A DNA stretch of 40,328 nucleotides. It comes from Candidatus Endomicrobiellum roisinitermitis (GTDB lineage Bacteria; Elusimicrobiota; Endomicrobiia; Endomicrobiales; Endomicrobiaceae). A program made the translations under genes and the position numbers. This document shows, in pieces, positions 32,235 through 40,328 of this stretch (positions are counted from its first letter, which is position 1; every line of letters begins with the position of its first letter). The stretch covers positions 1 through 40,328 of the forward strand of contig JAITSL010000005.1 of NCBI GenBank assembly GCA_031287855.1, in the 5' to 3' direction. The notes beneath the pieces were generated by a model that saw nothing but the letters and a program-made list of their open reading frames with translations, was not told the DNA's origin and searched no databases.

Positions 32235-32642
32235 ATGAAGACAGTAACACAGATGCCAGTACCAGAAGCGCCAGTCTCAAAAAAGCGTGCAGAAAAACCA
32301 AAAGAAATAAATGATTATTTAAGTCTAGTAGTTGAAAGGTTAAAAGCAGCAGACCCATACAAGATAGTATTGTTTGGGTCTTATGCTAAAGGCAATGCTA
32401 AACCTGATAGCGATATAGATTTGATGGTGATACTAAATACTGAATATTTTTCAAAAAATGGAACTGAAAAATTAAAAAGAGATTGTAGGATAATACGTTT
32501 AGTGTCAGATATACATTATGAATATGGTATGGATTTTAAAGTTTATTCAAAGTCGGAGTTACAAGAACTTAAAAATAGAGAGAATTTCTTCATACAAGAG
32601 GTAGAAAGAACTGGAGAAACATTATATGAAAAAGGTAACTAA
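32235..32642 (+). CDS. MNT-type nucleotidyltransferase (antitoxin-like), copy 1
   Basis: 135 residues. The nucleotidyltransferase motif GSYAKGNAKPDSDID (48-62) fits the GSx10DxD pattern of MNT-domain antitoxins, which pair with HEPN proteins; in the studied MntA-HepT system the MNT protein adenylylates the HEPN toxin. Residues 1-22 are a Pro/Lys-rich extension absent from copy 2. The 3' end overlaps the HEPN gene by 17 bases. GAGAGGAT stands before the ATG. 95 bases (32298-32392) are identical to 33046-33140 in copy 2. Confidence 0.88.
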   Translation: MKTVTQMPVPEAPVSKKRAEKPKEINDYLSLVVERLKAADPYKIVLFGSYAKGNAKPDSDIDLMVILNTEYFSKNGTEKLKRDCRIIRLVSDIHYEYGMDFKVYSKSELQELKNRENFFIQEVERTGETLYEKGN

Positions 32643-33003
32643 GGAATGGATAATTCATTCGCAAGATGACATGAATATTGTTAAAAATCTTTTTGCGGAT
32701 GGTATATCTGTACAGGGTGTTATCTTTCATTGTCAACGTGCAGTAGAGAAATATTTTAAAGCGTTTTTATTAGAGCACGGAGCTAAATTCAACAAAACAC
32801 ATGATTTAGAAAATCTATATAAAGAAGTAAGAAAAATTAAGGATTTTAAGTTGGAGTTAGATACAATAATTGAGCTTTACAAAAGATATTCTGACACGAT
32901 TTATCCGGGAGATATTTGGCCACCCACACAAGAGGAAGCCAGAGAGTTTTACAAGTTCGCCTTAGAGGTAGAACAAAAAATCAAAAAAGAGTTAGGTGCT
33001 TAG
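32626..33003 (+). CDS. HEPN-domain protein (toxin-like), copy 1
   Basis: 125 residues. The four-helix HEPN fold of the PF05168 type is seen in HSQDDMNIVKNLF, FHCQRAVEKYFKAFLLEHG, KTHDLENLYKEV and YKRYSDTIYPG. I see no RX4-6H ribonuclease motif, so the catalytic mode of classic HEPN RNases, and the RX4HXY site adenylylated in HepT, are not evident. The gene overlaps its MNT partner. The last ~55 bases are identical to the end of copy 2. Confidence 0.85.
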   Translation: MKKVTKEWIIHSQDDMNIVKNLFADGISVQGVIFHCQRAVEKYFKAFLLEHGAKFNKTHDLENLYKEVRKIKDFKLELDTIIELYKRYSDTIYPGDIWPPTQEEAREFYKFALEVEQKIKKELGA

Positions 33004-33030
33004 CTCCTAGTAGGAAGAAGGAGATAAAAC

Positions 33031-33390
33031 GTGAACACAAAAAGGCCAAAAGAAATAAATGATTATTTAAGTCTAGTAGTTGAAAGGTTAAAAGCAGCAG
33101 ACCCATACAAGATAGTATTGTTTGGGTCTTATGCTAAAGGGGAAGCAAAGCCTGACAGCGATATAGATTTGATGGTGATACTGGATAATGAGTATCTTTC
33201 AAAAGATGGTGCTGAGGAAACGAAAAGAGATTGTAAGGTAATAGAGTTGGTAGACGATATACATTATAAATATGGTATGGATTTTAAAATTTTCTCAAGA
33301 GCAGAATTTCAAGAACTTAAAAATAGAGGTAGTTTTTTTGTATACGAAGTAGAGCGCACGGGGGAGACTATATATGAAAAATATAATTAA
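33031..33390 (+). CDS. MNT-type nucleotidyltransferase (antitoxin-like), copy 2
   Basis: 119 residues from a GTG start with AAGGAG seven bases upstream. The motif GSYAKGEAKPDSDID (32-46) keeps both Asp residues. The N-terminal half is nearly identical to copy 1, while the C-terminal half (from DNEYLSKDGAEE) has diverged. Overlaps its HEPN partner by 17 bases, the same arrangement as copy 1, so the pair was duplicated as a unit. Confidence 0.88.
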   Translation: MNTKRPKEINDYLSLVVERLKAADPYKIVLFGSYAKGEAKPDSDIDLMVILDNEYLSKDGAEETKRDCKVIELVDDIHYKYGMDFKIFSRAEFQELKNRGSFFVYEVERTGETIYEKYN

Positions 33391-33778
33391 AGAGTGGATA
33401 GACTTTGCCCAAAAAGATATGCGTACTAATGAGAAGCTTTTGAAATATAGTGATTTTGATACAGAAATTGTTACCTTCCATTGTCAGCAAGCAATAGAGA
33501 AATATTTCAAAGCGTTTTTGTTAGAAAATGGGTGGCAACTACAAAAGACACACGATATAGTAACATTACATAAAGAGATAAAAAAGATTAAAGATTTTGG
33601 TTTTGACTATGGCATAATAAACAGTATCTACAAGATGTATTCTGATATTCGTTATCCGGGCTATTACAAGCCACCCACACAAGAACAAGTCCGAGAGTTT
33701 TACAAGTTCGCCTTAGAGGTAGAACAAAAAATCAAAAAAGAGTTAGGAGTAGAGGGTATGGGATCATACAATGCTTAA
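33374..33778 (+). CDS. HEPN-domain protein (toxin-like), copy 2
   Basis: 134 residues; WIDFAQKDMRTNEKLL, FHCQQAIEKYFKAFLLENG, KTHDIVTLHKEI and YSDIRYPG give the HEPN pattern, again without RX4-6H. The 3' end differs from copy 1: after KKELG the frame runs into the right inverted repeat, which supplies the last residues (YNA and the bases before). The cassette end therefore forms part of the gene. Confidence 0.86.
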   Translation: MKNIIKEWIDFAQKDMRTNEKLLKYSDFDTEIVTFHCQQAIEKYFKAFLLENGWQLQKTHDIVTLHKEIKKIKDFGFDYGIINSIYKMYSDIRYPGYYKPPTQEQVREFYKFALEVEQKIKKELGVEGMGSYNA

Positions 33779-33996: not shown

Positions 33997-34068
33997 TCCG
34001 ACGTAGCTCAATGGTGGAGCAATCGGCTGTTAACCGATCGGTTGCTGGTTCGAGTCCAGCCGTCGGAG
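33997..34068 (+). tRNA. tRNA-Asn (anticodon GTT)
   Basis: 72 nt. Acceptor TCCGACG pairs with CGTCGGA; D arm GCTC/GAGC; anticodon stem ATCGG/CCGAT around loop CTGTTAA, anticodon GTT; T arm GCTGG-TTCGAGT-CCAGC; discriminator G. CCA is not encoded, consistent with use of a CCA-adding enzyme. G at position 34 is the queuosine position; a preQ0 gene set lies on the other strand. Confidence 0.97.
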
Positions 34069-34168
34069 TTTATATTTAGTGAAGAGATGTTACCGCTACC
34101 AGTGCAAGCATAGGAATAAGGTATAAATTTTACTTGTAAGCTAATAAAAATTATAACTATGAAAAGAT

Positions 34169-36004
34169 ATGAAAGAAATAACAAAACAACACAACACAAC
34201 ACAACACAACACAACACAACACAACACAACACAACACAACACAACACAACACAACACAACACAACAGACAATACCCCTTATTAGCTCGCTGTTTGTTTTT
34301 TTCTTTTTTACCAACAACGGTTTTGGCGCGTCCGGAGATAAGGAAGAATATATCGGCCAACAGATTCAACAGCAGCAGCAACAGGAGAAAAATTACAGAG
34401 ACAACATCAGAAGAATATTGGAAACAAAGCGAGTCAAAGATTCAAAGAAGTTAGGGCCAGTCCTTGATACAATTGAAGAAACGCCGCCGGTATCGTTAAG
34501 CGATGCCGCCGGCGTTTATAAATTTAATAAGATAGTTTTAATCGGTAACAGGGTATTTTCTTACAAAAAGTTATACAAGGCAATATTAAGGGATTTTAAG
34601 GGAAAACGTTTCTCTGTTGCAATCAATGATCACAGATTATTATGTTAAGCGCGGATATATAGCGGTAAAAGTTTATTTTGATAGAAAACATATCACATTG
34701 GATTCATTTGCATTTATTATAGAAGAGGGAATAGTAAGTAAAATAACGCTTAAAAACTCAAAGGACTTGTCGTTTAGAAAAAAGACCCGTCTATTTTTTG
34801 CATTTCCATTTTTGAAAGGGCGCCGCATAAATATAAACGATTTTGAACAGGGTCTAGATCAGATGAACAAGCTGGAGTCTAATAACATTACTATGCAAAT
34901 GAGGCCGGCGGGATTGGAGAATTTAGGCGATAGCGCTTCAGTTTATTTAATAACGATAAAAAAGACGCAAATATAGATTACGGGCAAATCCATGCTTTCC
35001 CTACGCTTGACTTGTTTGGTAATGATCACGAAAAAAAACGATTTAGTAAGTCTTTATACACATCATTTTCTTTTCCGTTTGGTTACTGGTCGTTTACCTC
35101 TGTGTTAAACTACGCAACATATAAAACGCTTGTAGAGGGGAAATACACCTTTTTTAATATTACAGGGGAAAGCGTAGGTCAAACATATTGGCTAGACAGG
35201 GTTATATGGAGAAAGCGGCAATATAAAATGAATTTAGGTGCGTCGCTTGGAATACAAGACAGCCAAGGTTATGTCAGAGACATAAGAAGCCAAACGGGAA
35301 GTGCAAGAAGGAGCAATTTATCGCTATACTTAAATAACACAATATATACAAGATATGCGATGCTGATAATAAAACCGTCATACCAAAAAGGACTTTCATG
35401 GTTTGGAGCAAAGATAGACAAAGACGTTTATGTAGATGAAGTTAGGCTTGATTCAGAGCCTCGCTTACAATATGATATAGTCAAACTTTACATGTATTTT
35501 AACGCGCAGGTAATAGCGCATATGTATTATAGTTTGATGATGGATTGGCAATATAGCTTTAACAGTTTATACGGAAACGAACAGTTCAGCGTTGGTGGAC
35601 AATACAGCGTTAGAGGTTTTAGGAATAGCACAATTAGTGGCAATAGTGGGTTTTATGTGCGCAATGAGGCAAGGACAAATTTGTTGAGAATATTTAATGT
35701 TTCTATATTTTATGATTTTGGATATGTTAAAAATAAACACAAAAGGCCTTACGATGATAGGTACAACAGTCAAAGTGGTTCATTAAGCGGGTGTGGAGTG
35801 TGTGTTGGATGGGATTTGCAATATATTAATATGTCCTTGACATATGCAAAATGGTTGCACAGGGCCAGATATTTGCAAGAGCGAGACGGTATAAAAAAAG
35901 AAGATAATGTTGTCTATTGGCGAATAGGAGCAAAAGTAATAACAAGAGAAATAAAGAATAAAATTATAGAGAGTGGTGGAAAATTGCCGCCAGGAATAGA
36001 GTAG
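34169..36004 (+). pseudogene. TpsB/FhaC/CdiB-type two-partner-secretion outer-membrane transporter, frameshifted
   Basis: Three blocks together make one ~610-codon gene. Block 1 (34169-34648): ATG, an (ACAAC)16 tract giving Gln-His-Asn-Thr-Thr repeats, a hydrophobic signal segment (IPLISSLFVFFFF), a Gln-rich helix and the first POTRA-like part. Block 2 (34617-34976, other frame): ITDYYVKRGYIAVKVYF, FAFPFLKGR and FEQGLDQMNKLESN, the hallmark POTRA/ShlB linker. Block 3 (from ~34958, first frame again, to 36004): the beta barrel, with YSVRGFRNSTISGNSGFYVR, the VRGY/F motif of loop 6. Shifts lie near 34620 and in the A6 run at 34958-34963. Family members export large TpsA or CdiA proteins; no such partner is here. 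GC is higher than in neighbouring genes, suggesting acquisition. Confidence 0.85.
34186..34265 (+). repeat. Pentanucleotide microsatellite, 16 units of ACAAC
   Basis: Sixteen perfect ACAAC units inside the 5' coding end of the TpsB-type gene, between the ATG and the signal segment. With a unit of five, gain or loss of one unit shifts the frame. An ATG at 34159 in another frame also reads through the tract. The current length keeps the 34169 ATG in frame with the signal segment and POTRA region. Confidence 0.97.
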
Positions 36005-36014
36005 AGGAGATATA

Positions 36015-36566
36015 ATGAAAAATTATAAAAAATTATTATTAGATGATATAAAAAGTGAATTGACAGATAAAGATGAATATAGCACTCATGTGAACTATTT
36101 GATCGGAAAAAATAAGAGTAAGAGAGAGTATTTAGTAGAGGGTATAAAAATCTTTAAGATTTTAATTGATATTTGTATAGAGAATGGTTTGGTAAATGAT
36201 TTTATTCCACATTTTGTTATATATTTAAAAGATGCAAGAGGGATTAAAAATCCTAATGAAAATATTGCAAGTATAGCAAATCTATTAAAGATATTGGATG
36301 AAGAAACACCTCCATCGGTATTTATGACCCAAAAAGTTATGAGTACTGGTACTTATACGTCTCAAGAGATGAGAAGTTTCTACTTCCCAAAAACTGCTGT
36401 GGAGAAATTATTTAATGAAAGTTTCGACAAAAATATTTATATGTATTATTATTTTTATAAGATTGGTAATGAAAAAATATATGAGAGAGCTATTAGTATT
36501 GAATATAATAAGCATGATGTTAAGAAAATAAAGTATCATAAAAGCTTGGAATTAGAGATAAAATAG
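36015..36566 (+). CDS. Unknown protein, immunity-like paralogue 1
   Basis: 183 residues, Lys- and Tyr-rich, soluble, no signal peptide. AGAGGAGAT precedes the ATG and the gene begins 10 bases after the TpsB-type gene, so they were co-transcribed. It is a clear paralogue of the next gene: LVEGIKIFKILIDICIENGL aligns with LLEGIKIYKSLVDISIENEW, followed by similar F-I-P/L-V-P and Y-L-K/H-L-K positions. In two-partner inhibition loci the small genes at this place are immunity proteins; that role is inferred from context only. Confidence 0.6.
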   Translation: MKNYKKLLLDDIKSELTDKDEYSTHVNYLIGKNKSKREYLVEGIKIFKILIDICIENGLVNDFIPHFVIYLKDARGIKNPNENIASIANLLKILDEETPPSVFMTQKVMSTGTYTSQEMRSFYFPKTAVEKLFNESFDKNIYMYYYFYKIGNEKIYERAISIEYNKHDVKKIKYHKSLELEIK

Positions 36567-36609
36567 ATAAAAGTAGAGATATAAAGATAGTAAAATAAGA
36601 GAGGGGAAA

Positions 36610-37188
36610 ATGACAGATTATAAGGATATGGTATTAAAATATTTAAAAGAGAATTATACTAACAAAAAAAGCACAGAATTTATTATAAGTATAGATAATT
36701 TTATAAAAGAAAAAGATAATAAGTTATATTTACTTGAAGGAATAAAGATATATAAAAGTTTAGTAGATATTAGTATAGAGAATGAGTGGGTAGATGATTT
36801 GGTACCAAGTTTTTATATACACTTAAAAACCACAAAAAATGTAGAAGTTCCAGATGTTAAAAACATTACTCTAAATAAGATACTTAAAGACATGGACAAG
36901 ATTAAGTGTCCAGAAATGCTAATGATAAAAAAAATTATTAAAGCAACATTTTATAATAATAAAGAGGTATGTAAGTTTGGAATAGAAAATAGTGTAGTTG
37001 AAAAAATATTTGAAGAGAAAATAAATTGTGATTTTTATGCACACTATGAATATATAAAGAAATATAAGCTACTAAAAGAGGAAGAAAGTGACTATTATGA
37101 TAAGTATATATCGATAGCGTATAATGAAAATCATATAAGAGATGTAAAAGATATAGATGAATTAGTTTTTAAAAAGAGGTATTCATAA
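36610..37188 (+). CDS. Unknown protein, immunity-like paralogue 2
   Basis: 192 residues, paralogous to the preceding gene over most of its length, with the same order of motifs and a similar end (ISIAYNENHIRDVKDI against ISIEYNKHDVKKI). Lys/Asp-rich and probably cytoplasmic. GAGAGGGG precedes the ATG. Tandem, diverged copies behind a transporter fit an immunity array, but no known immunity fold is recognised. Confidence 0.6.
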   Translation: MTDYKDMVLKYLKENYTNKKSTEFIISIDNFIKEKDNKLYLLEGIKIYKSLVDISIENEWVDDLVPSFYIHLKTTKNVEVPDVKNITLNKILKDMDKIKCPEMLMIKKIIKATFYNNKEVCKFGIENSVVEKIFEEKINCDFYAHYEYIKKYKLLKEEESDYYDKYISIAYNENHIRDVKDIDELVFKKRYS

Positions 37189-37229
37189 AATAATAGTTAA
37201 TATTTTCTGGAATAAATATAGGCTCGACT

Positions 37230-37454
37230 GTGATGCTGCTTGGAGGACTTGCGGTTGGCGCTGCGAGAAGTCGAGTTGCTACAAGTATCTCAAGAGCAAG
37301 AGCAATAAAACGTTATGTTAAATCGAGAGGTAAAAAATTTAAGGAGTTGAGAAAAAACCATTGGGAAAATGAATTTAATGTTAAAAATGAGGCAAAAAAT
37401 GAAGGTAATAAGATGAAAGTTTTGAATAAAAAAGCCAAAGGTGACTGTTTATGA
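37230..37454 (+). CDS. Fragment with a basic C-terminal-toxin-like tail
   Basis: About 74 residues from a GTG (ATG three bases later), without a good ribosome site; the frame is open back to 37197. A small hydrophobic Gly/Ala-rich segment is followed by a very basic stretch, RARAIKRYVKSRGKKFKELR, and KNHWENEF. The F-K-x-x-[FW] pattern after a basic run recalls the region before nuclease domains at the ends of polymorphic toxins. I read it as a possible relic of a secreted-toxin tail. Weak; it may be a chance frame. Confidence 0.3.
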   Translation: MMLLGGLAVGAARSRVATSISRARAIKRYVKSRGKKFKELRKNHWENEFNVKNEAKNEGNKMKVLNKKAKGDCL

Positions 37455-37537
37455 AAAAAAGCTTTAAGGCAAAGGGAGCAAAAACGATAAATGAAATAGC
37501 GCAACAGTATGAAGTACGTTCGAAGAGTAGAGTTTAA
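37451..37537 (+). mobile_element. IS3-type orfA (HTH) remnant
   Basis: The 28-residue frame starting MKKSFKAKGAKTINEIAQQY, then EVRSKSRV and a stop, resembles the N-terminal helix-turn-helix of IS3-family OrfA (F-K-A-K-V-A-L-E-A, then TI-x-E-[IL]-A-x-x-[YF]-x-V-H), with a short internal deletion and early truncation. No orfB or inverted repeats seen. Confidence 0.55.
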
Positions 37538-37652
37538 GCATAAATTATTTTATAAAATTTCTATTTCAATTGGGTATAAATTTGTTTTTAGCTAAACATT
37601 TTTATATACGTTAGACTGTCGTTATATTCTAAATTTAGGAGGATACATTAAG

Positions 37653-38249
37653 ATGGGTAGTATTATGAAAAGTTTAATGGTCTTTGTTTTGTTATTAACA
37701 GCTGTTATGACTGGGGTTACAAAGCCAAATAATGATAGAGAATTTATTTTAAAATTTGGAATTCAACCTTTAAACACTCTGTCACGAAAAAGTGAAGGCA
37801 ATAATGTAAGCTTTAACACAAAAATTGGGTTTTCTGCAGGATTTGAATATTTTCAATATTTAAATAATATTGCCGCATTAGGGCTTGGAGCAATGTATGA
37901 TTTTCCTAGAAAGGCAATTGATAATGATAATGATGATGATAGTATATCTTTTGTGCCACTTTTTGCAGCTGTGAAATTGCGCACACCTGCACAGGGGTTA
38001 GATAACGATAACACATTTATGTTTTGTTCAGGCAGGATAGGAGCTAGTATACCTATAATATCAGGTTTGTCCGATGGAGCAAAGCAAAAACCAGGATTTT
38101 ATTGTGGTGCGGGAATAGGATTTAATATAAATTATATAGTTATAGAAGCAATATACGCAATAAATAACTTTAGTGTTTCTGGTGATTTTGGGAAAAATGA
38201 TTTTGACTGTCAGACAATATCACTTTACGCTGGGTTTAAGTTTAAATAA
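37653..38249 (+). CDS. Outer-membrane beta-barrel protein, small
   Basis: 198 residues. AGGAGG lies ten bases before the ATG. Signal peptide ~1-22 (SLMVFVLLLTAVMTG). The remainder shows alternating strands suited to an eight-stranded barrel: ILKFGIQPL, GFSAGFEYFQYL, VPLFAAVKLRT, ISLYAGFKFK. An Asp/Asn-rich loop (DNDNDDD) lies near residue 90. It ends in Lys, not in the usual aromatic residue. Function unknown; probably surface-exposed. Confidence 0.65.
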   Translation: MGSIMKSLMVFVLLLTAVMTGVTKPNNDREFILKFGIQPLNTLSRKSEGNNVSFNTKIGFSAGFEYFQYLNNIAALGLGAMYDFPRKAIDNDNDDDSISFVPLFAAVKLRTPAQGLDNDNTFMFCSGRIGASIPIISGLSDGAKQKPGFYCGAGIGFNINYIVIEAIYAINNFSVSGDFGKNDFDCQTISLYAGFKFK

Positions 38250-38367
38250 ACTGAGTTAGCCTGTCTGAGAAAAAATAGATTATAATTGTTACTTAATTAA
38301 TATCAGCTATTAAGCGCTCCTACGCAGGAATGAAGGGATGGAACTCTAATAAAAAAAGGGAATGTTT

Positions 38368-39237: not shown

Positions 39238-40328
39238 ATGAAAAGTCAGGGATTAGATGAACCAATAGTAAAGTCTGAAGATAAATATGGTAAAGGAGGA
39301 GCGACGCAGGCAATCACAAAAAGTGAGATAAAGAATGATGTAAATGAGAAAGAAAAGATGGTAAATAAAAACAGAATAAAATTATTGCTAATACTTTGTC
39401 TTAGTTTGAATATATCTAGTTATTTTCTTATGGCTCAAGACATAGTAATACGTGATACAGTGGTTAATCACTATGTTTTTGGAAATGGGGATGCAGGAGA
39501 TAATGGAAACGGAACTTTTGATACTATAGTACTAGCTTCCCAGAATAATAGTGTAACTATTTTGGGCATTGCAGGTGTTGGCATTATTGCTGGGGCTATA
39601 GATAGACCAGAAATTACAGAAGATGTTAGATCAAATAGCCTTGTCATAGATATAAGTACTAGTGTAACAGATCTTAGATGTGGGACGACAGCTGACGTAT
39701 GCGGAGGAATAGGGAGAAATTCTGGAAGTAATGCAATAGAAAACATTTTAAGGATAAACAATGGAGATATACAAAGAGATGCGTTTGGGGGAATCAGTCT
39801 TCTAGGAGAAGCAAAAAATAACAAGGTAATAATATCAGGAGGAGTATTAAGAGGTGATATAGGAGGAGGAGCAACTCAAGACTCTAATGCAAATGAAAAT
39901 AAAGTAATAATTAGTGGGGGAGAGATTTTAGGTAATATTTATGGAGGCATGTCTGGAGATGGAGGAGCAGTAGGGAACACGGTAGAAATTAGTGGGGGAG
40001 AGTTTTTAGGTAATATTTATGGAGGCATTTCTAGAGATGGAGGGGCAGTAGGGAACACGGTAGAAATTAGTGGGGGAGAGTTTTTAGATAATATTTATGG
40101 AGGCAGGTCTAGAGATGGAGGGGCAGTAGGGAACACGGTAGAAATTAGTGGGGGAGAGTTTTTTGCAGATGTTTATGGAGGCAAGTCTAGAGATGGAGGA
40201 GCAGTTGGTAACACGGTAGAAATTAGCGGGGATCCAAAATTTTCAACAAATACATTTATATATGGAGGATTCACTTCTACTGCTTCAGTAGCAGATGTTT
40301 TTACGAATAATACTTTAAATATAAAGAC
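39238..40328 (+). CDS. Repeat-rich surface protein, 5' part (continues beyond the window)
   Basis: The ATG at 39238 (AGAGGA upstream) opens a frame that reaches the window end, at least 363 codons. A charged 43-residue N-terminal extension comes before a signal-type helix (RIKLLLILCLSLNISSYFL), like the extended signal peptides of some autotransporters. The passenger starts after MAQD. From ~39820 there are repeated 26-residue units with EISGGEF, NIYGG and DGGAVGNTV, each rung G-rich as in beta-helical adhesins. An internal ATG at 39358 is a poorer start. By analogy with the protein at the left edge it may end in a barrel and an OmpA tail, but that part lies outside. Confidence 0.75.
   Translation, partial: MKSQGLDEPIVKSEDKYGKGGATQAITKSEIKNDVNEKEKMVNKNRIKLLLILCLSLNISSYFLMAQDIVIRDTVVNHYVFGNGDAGDNGNGTFDTIVLASQNNSVTILGIAGVGIIAGAIDRPEITEDVRSNSLVIDISTSVTDLRCGTTADVCGGIGRNSGSNAIENILRINNGDIQRDAFGGISLLGEAKNNKVIISGGVLRGDIGGGATQDSNANENKVIISGGEILGNIYGGMSGDGGAVGNTVEISGGEFLGNIYGGISRDGGAVGNTVEISGGEFLDNIYGGRSRDGGAVGNTVEISGGEFFADVYGGKSRDGGAVGNTVEISGDPKFSTNTFIYGGFTSTASVADVFTNNTLNIK
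39820..40240 (+). repeat. 78-bp tandem coding repeats
   Basis: Three near-identical 78-base units occupy 39976-40053, 40054-40131 and 40132-40209; diverged units lie before (from ~39820) and a partial one after (to ~40240). Each encodes one 26-residue rung. Identity between units is high enough for recombination to change their number. Confidence 0.9.

Follow-up and report, generated by a model that had tools for sequence, protein, structure and literature searches.

Slipped-strand contingency loci of the Haemophilus influenzae and opa type carry, just behind the start of a surface gene, a repeat whose unit is not a multiple of three, with alternative start codons placed in different frames. 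Examples with the repeat in the 5' coding end are loci of H. influenzae (PMC2651432) and the opa genes of Neisseria gonorrhoeae (PMC13183285). A related arrangement is found in Streptococcus gallolyticus, where slippage of (GCAGA)n in the pil1 leader peptide has been shown to control a premature terminator, the leader of pil1 (and of pil3) carrying (GCAGA)22 before that terminator (PMC3894217). Simple-repeat phase variation has been studied mostly in animal pathogens; the locus described here lies in an eroding endosymbiont of termite-gut flagellates, a member of Ca. Endomicrobiellum (Endomicrobiaceae, Elusimicrobiota), a genus of termite-flagellate endosymbionts (PMC11257099). Literature searches on ACAAC phase variation, Endomicrobium two-partner secretion and repeat phase variation in endosymbionts returned nothing about this locus.

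Positions 34186-34265 of the window, the whole stretch of 40,328 nucleotides that was analysed, consist of sixteen perfect ACAAC units; the period extends one base further, to 34266. TRF calls the tract at 34181-34266 with 17.2 copies and a 98% match. Its 81 bases constitute the longest period-5 run of the window, and no such run above 19 bases arose when the window was shuffled 200 times with dinucleotides preserved. The (ACAAC)16 tract that the earlier note had reported is confirmed. The tract occupies the 5' end of a TpsB-type gene, and the features of the locus are as follows, with identities and residue numbers referring to the TpsB of free-living E. proavitum, an intact protein of 707 aa that served as the reference for decay.

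33997-34068, forward strand: tRNA-Asn (Rfam tRNA, 70.3 bits; anticodon GTT from the sequence), the landmark upstream of the tract
34159-34161, forward strand: first ATG, in the TpsB frame at 14, 17, 20 ... units only
34169-34171, forward strand: second ATG, in the TpsB frame at 13, 16, 19 ... units, the state of the assembly
34186-34266, forward strand: ACAAC tract plus one base, free of stops in all frames, reading as HNTTQ repeats
34268-34330, forward strand: signal-peptide-like segment TIPLISSLFVFFFFTNNGFGA, directly 3' of the tract, inferred from the translation
34331-34648, forward strand: TpsB linker and start of the first POTRA domain, with a premature stop at its end; 48% identity to residues 38-141
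34605-34931, forward strand: POTRA region in another frame (tblastn frame +2); 45% identity to residues 111-253; POTRA_3 E=9e-15
34911-34940, forward strand: deletion point; residues 254-330 absent, the first barrel strands among them
34940-36004, forward strand: remaining TpsB beta-barrel in an open frame; 49% identity

The proposed position of the tract, between a start codon and the signal-like segment of a TpsB-type gene, holds, with two upstream ATGs rather than one. The ATGs at 34159 and 34169 stand in different frames, and the third frame is without a start codon. At 16 units, the frame of the ATG at 34159 stops five codons past the tract, and at 15 or 18 units neither ATG matches the TpsB frame. 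Inspection revealed no good Shine-Dalgarno or ribosome-binding-site-like sequence before either ATG. With its five-base unit, stop-free frames, staggered ATGs and signal-like segment, the locus has the anatomy of a slipped-strand contingency gene. Gain or loss of one ACAAC unit would shift the frame between the two staggered ATGs and the TpsB signal segment, and three phases would result. The gene would be on from the second ATG at 13, 16 or 19 units; at 14, 17 or 20 units it would be on from the first ATG, its N-terminus then being slightly longer; and at 15 or 18 units it would be off. The locus thereby resembles the H. influenzae and opa genes in its non-triplet repeat near the start and its alternative ATGs in different frames, whereas it differs in its termite-flagellate endosymbiont host, its ACAAC unit and its status as a pseudogene. 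It also differs from pil1: the tract is fused into the TpsB ORF, with no separate leader ORF at the locus, and no terminator-like hairpin was detected just 3' of the tract, where the predicted fold is no better than that of shuffles.

The source genome is a draft assembly of 57 contigs and 1,263,672 bases. A repeat census was made on a 331 kb sample, about 26% of the assembly, in which the best pentamer run aside from the ACAAC tract reached 3.2 units and the best tetramer run likewise 3.2 units; long repeats are therefore not a general property of the genome. Across the source assembly, no further ACAAC tract of at least four units was found.

Profile searches bear out the TpsB-type assignment, with matches to the ShlB barrel (PF03865, E=5e-50) and POTRA_3 lying in separate frames. 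The nearest solved relatives are CdiB (6wim, E=7e-17; also 6wil) and FhaC (4ql0, E=5e-7). The gene shares its ShlB barrel and POTRA domains with these TpsB proteins of two-partner secretion, yet differs from FhaC and CdiB in its frame change, in the loss of the first barrel strands and in the lack of any TpsA detected in the genus. Alignment with E. proavitum TpsB divides the gene into three pieces with 45-49% identity, covering residues 38-141, residues 111-253 in a second frame, and residues 331-704 in the first frame again. The frameshift asserted by the earlier note is thus present, near 34605, and beyond it lies a large barrel deletion of about 77 residues relative to E. proavitum. Two more barrel stretches are missing, and the ShlB match begins at position 61 of 311, positions 1-60 being absent. 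Consequently, no single reading frame encodes a complete barrel, and even in the on frame the frame change and the deletion leave no intact gene. Comparison with the TpsB copies of two other genomes (G017 and G019) agrees on this decay. The window TpsB is therefore a pseudogene in every phase that the tract can take.

The partner protein, a TpsA with a TPS domain, was found in 0 of 42 genus genomes, in a search whose positive controls were also unmatched. The same TPS model matches the TpsA of E. proavitum (E=1.7e-35), where TpsA adjoins the intact TpsB. A pattern-based search of named genomes found no relatives of the TpsB barrel. The original claim of a slippage switch is supported in part. 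The anatomy, the length differences between species and the tracts before surface genes in related Endomicrobiaceae favour it, but with TpsB reduced to a pseudogene and TpsA undetected in the genus, a working transporter is no longer there to be switched.

Comparison of the same site in relatives relied on the tRNA-Asn landmark, which was matched in 37 of the 42 genus genomes; in many of them a guaB-like gene, read from the sequence by eye, lies 3' of it. At this tRNA-Asn, Ca. Endomicrobiellum incisitermitis (G011, JAISOG010000020.1) carries ATGATAAA and then nothing but repeat for 118 bases, up to the contig end. The largest k of the MEGAHIT assemblies in PMC11257099 is 119, and 118 equals k-1 at that value, so the assembler stopped inside this tract, whose true length is at least 23 units. 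At the same place, another congener (G016) carries ATGAAACACAAC and then a flank homologous to the post-tract sequence of the window (0/2000 shuffles), representing a one-unit remnant. With one genome per species, the tract at this single tRNA-Asn thus measures 16, at least 23 and one unit in three species. Invariant length among relatives, which the earlier note had named as evidence against a switch, was not what the homologous loci displayed, the differences being between species. The TpsB genes of G017 and G019 are without a tract in the available sequence, the 5' end of the G019 gene being cut by a contig end.

A close relative, G001, is without window positions 34073-38345, its tRNA-Asn being joined to the next outer-membrane gene. 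The missing 4.3-kb segment comprises the tract, TpsB and three further ORFs. A 10-base repeat, CTAATAAAAA, stands at 34141 and 38346 and may be due to chance.

Of greater interest is what was found beyond the window, in the leaders of E. proavitum. A scan of the phylum found (ACAAC)8 in 4 of 341 genomes: that of the window, G011, G289 (Kf353_bin125, Endomicrobiaceae) and G293, which is E. proavitum Rsa215. Short leader ORFs of E. proavitum contain some 15 tracts of the type (ACAAC)n or (GACA)n, and most of these ORFs precede genes for adhesins or outer-membrane proteins. Its ACAAC tracts comprise 27.8, 40.8, 24.8, 24.8, 7.6 and 5.8 units, in leader ORFs about 125-150 nt 5' of very large Chlamydia-PMP, autotransporter and OmpA-type genes. 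Its GACA tracts comprise 9-34 units; (GACA)n replaces ACAAC at the equivalent place of paralogous adhesin genes, and additional GACA tracts lie mostly 5' of outer-membrane genes. Of 77 genomes of the family, 8 have GACA tracts, and no Endomicrobiellum genome is among these. Other pentanucleotide tracts before surface genes, which the earlier note had proposed to look for, are numerous in related Endomicrobiaceae, along with tetranucleotide ones; the sampled 26% of the tract's own genome has nothing comparable. The earlier note described the contingency design as one known in pathogens. It also occurs outside them: among the relatives found, the one with the most tracts is E. proavitum, a free-living isolate from the termite gut.

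The frames that follow the E. proavitum tracts differ in their ends. The first meets a stop immediately and the second shortly ahead of a hairpin, while the third enters or passes the hairpin and in some cases overlaps the gene's start codon. Terminator-like hairpins with T-runs follow 12 of 16 tracts, compared with 7 of 83 control gene upstreams (Fisher p=7e-8, a value that overstates independence, as the copies are partly paralogous). Under our own assignment of start codons, 12 of 14 leaders stand in the early-stop frame (binomial p=8e-5, generous for the same partly paralogous copies). The layout of pil1 is found here: a short leader ORF with a repeat of 5- or 4-base units, frames that end early, meet a terminator-like hairpin or pass it, and then a surface gene. 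The differences from pil1 are the other phylum, the use of at least two alternative units and the number of loci, about 15 within a single genome. On this layout the E. proavitum leaders look like repeat-gated attenuators, in which the number of repeats would set whether translation ends early or continues into the terminator-like hairpin upstream of the gene. The leaders suggest a separate origin, in a second phylum and with two different units, of the repeat-gated attenuation demonstrated in one Gram-positive species.

Repeats of this type also affect what assemblies reveal. In G289, contigs C20 and C7 carry 118 bases of ACAAC or GACA repeat at a contig start or end, indicating that such tracts break short-read assemblies. 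ACAAC and GACA tracts are probably under-reported.

The relationship between the window tract and these leaders was assessed from their flanks. About 30 nt of post-tract sequence in the window suggestively resembles the E. proavitum leaders, the best copy being equalled in 6/2000 shuffles and others in up to 331/2000, while similarity upstream of the tract was not significant. With a probability of roughly 0.7, the window tract would be a slipped-strand contingency switch that has outlived its TpsB gene, and it probably derives from a habit shared across the Endomicrobiaceae, in which short leader ORFs with long (ACAAC)n or (GACA)n repeats are placed ahead of genes for adhesins and outer-membrane proteins. 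Slippage and switching at the locus, and the descent of the tract from the leader system, are what we infer from this anatomy and these comparisons. The relic would have been kept long and pure through slippage or through recent function. Recent activity, which the earlier note had read from the purity of the tract, is possible; purity does not prove it, because slippage alone can keep a tract pure. A broader reading, to which we give about even odds, holds that Endomicrobiaceae possess a genome-wide set of leader attenuators gated by repeats, (ACAAC)n and (GACA)n being interchangeable, which in a free-living member phase-vary outer-membrane proteins and giant adhesins. The window tract would then be a surviving fragment of the system that was transferred to TpsB and remained there as the lineage became intracellular.

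An unlikely alternative is that the tract is a neutral microsatellite which grew inside an already decaying gene and was never a switch. It accords with the pseudogene state of TpsB, with the tract-free 5' end of the intact E. proavitum TpsB and with the capacity of slippage by itself to maintain purity. Against it, nothing comparable occurs elsewhere in the sampled genome, a congener's tract at the same site is still longer, and the repeat sits exactly between the start codons and the signal-like segment, in a family that uses such tracts before surface genes.

Continued activity of the switch is a more doubtful proposal still, under which slippage would vary a 159-residue N-terminal product or, by polarity, the downstream genes from 36015 onward. 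That product terminates within the first POTRA domain, ribosome-binding-site-like sequences are present for the ORFs at 36015 and 36610 individually, and the close relative G001 lacks the entire 34073-38345 segment; these points weigh against the on phase of the assembly, the purity of the tract and the presence of more same-strand ORFs downstream, which would otherwise favour it. An assembly artefact in the unit count or the frame breaks is scarcely credible, for although the 57-contig draft and the difficulty of assembling tandem repeats lend it some ground, an ordinary short read is longer than 81 bases, an independent genome has the tract at this site too, and a base-call error cannot yield a missing block of 77 residues. 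The exact count of 16 could be a population consensus.

Under the preferred reading of a switch that outlived its gene, its purpose would have been lost during the move into flagellates. The scale of repeat tracts is far larger in the cultured, free-living E. proavitum than in the endosymbiont, and the pair could be used to ask whether bacteria that become intracellular give up random surface switching, and for how long a tract persists after its gene.

In public genomes at large, (ACAAC)6+ tracts stand in at least 120 places, and some of those among the matches listed lie 5' of lipoprotein or secreted-protein ORFs. An enrichment of ACAAC tracts before start codons across phyla was considered and rejected, an ATG standing at most 22 nt upstream in 17/38 cases on the ACAAC strand and in 12/38 on the other (p=0.35). 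In unrelated phyla, the Spirochaetes genome E21_bin371 has several long ACAAC tracts immediately 5' of long ORFs, some of them lipoprotein-like, and long ACAAC tracts in the same position are present in termite-gut Margulisiibacteriota.

Two further observations concern the neighbourhood in the window. Positions 32235-33778 hold two tandem pairs of MNT nucleotidyltransferase and HEPN genes in a toxin-antitoxin layout, and G001 also has two such pairs. At 39909-40231, near the contig end, a 78-base tandem repeat of 4.1 copies belongs to a repetitive surface-protein ORF that runs from 39238, and the LOFI repeat model matched it above the cut-off.
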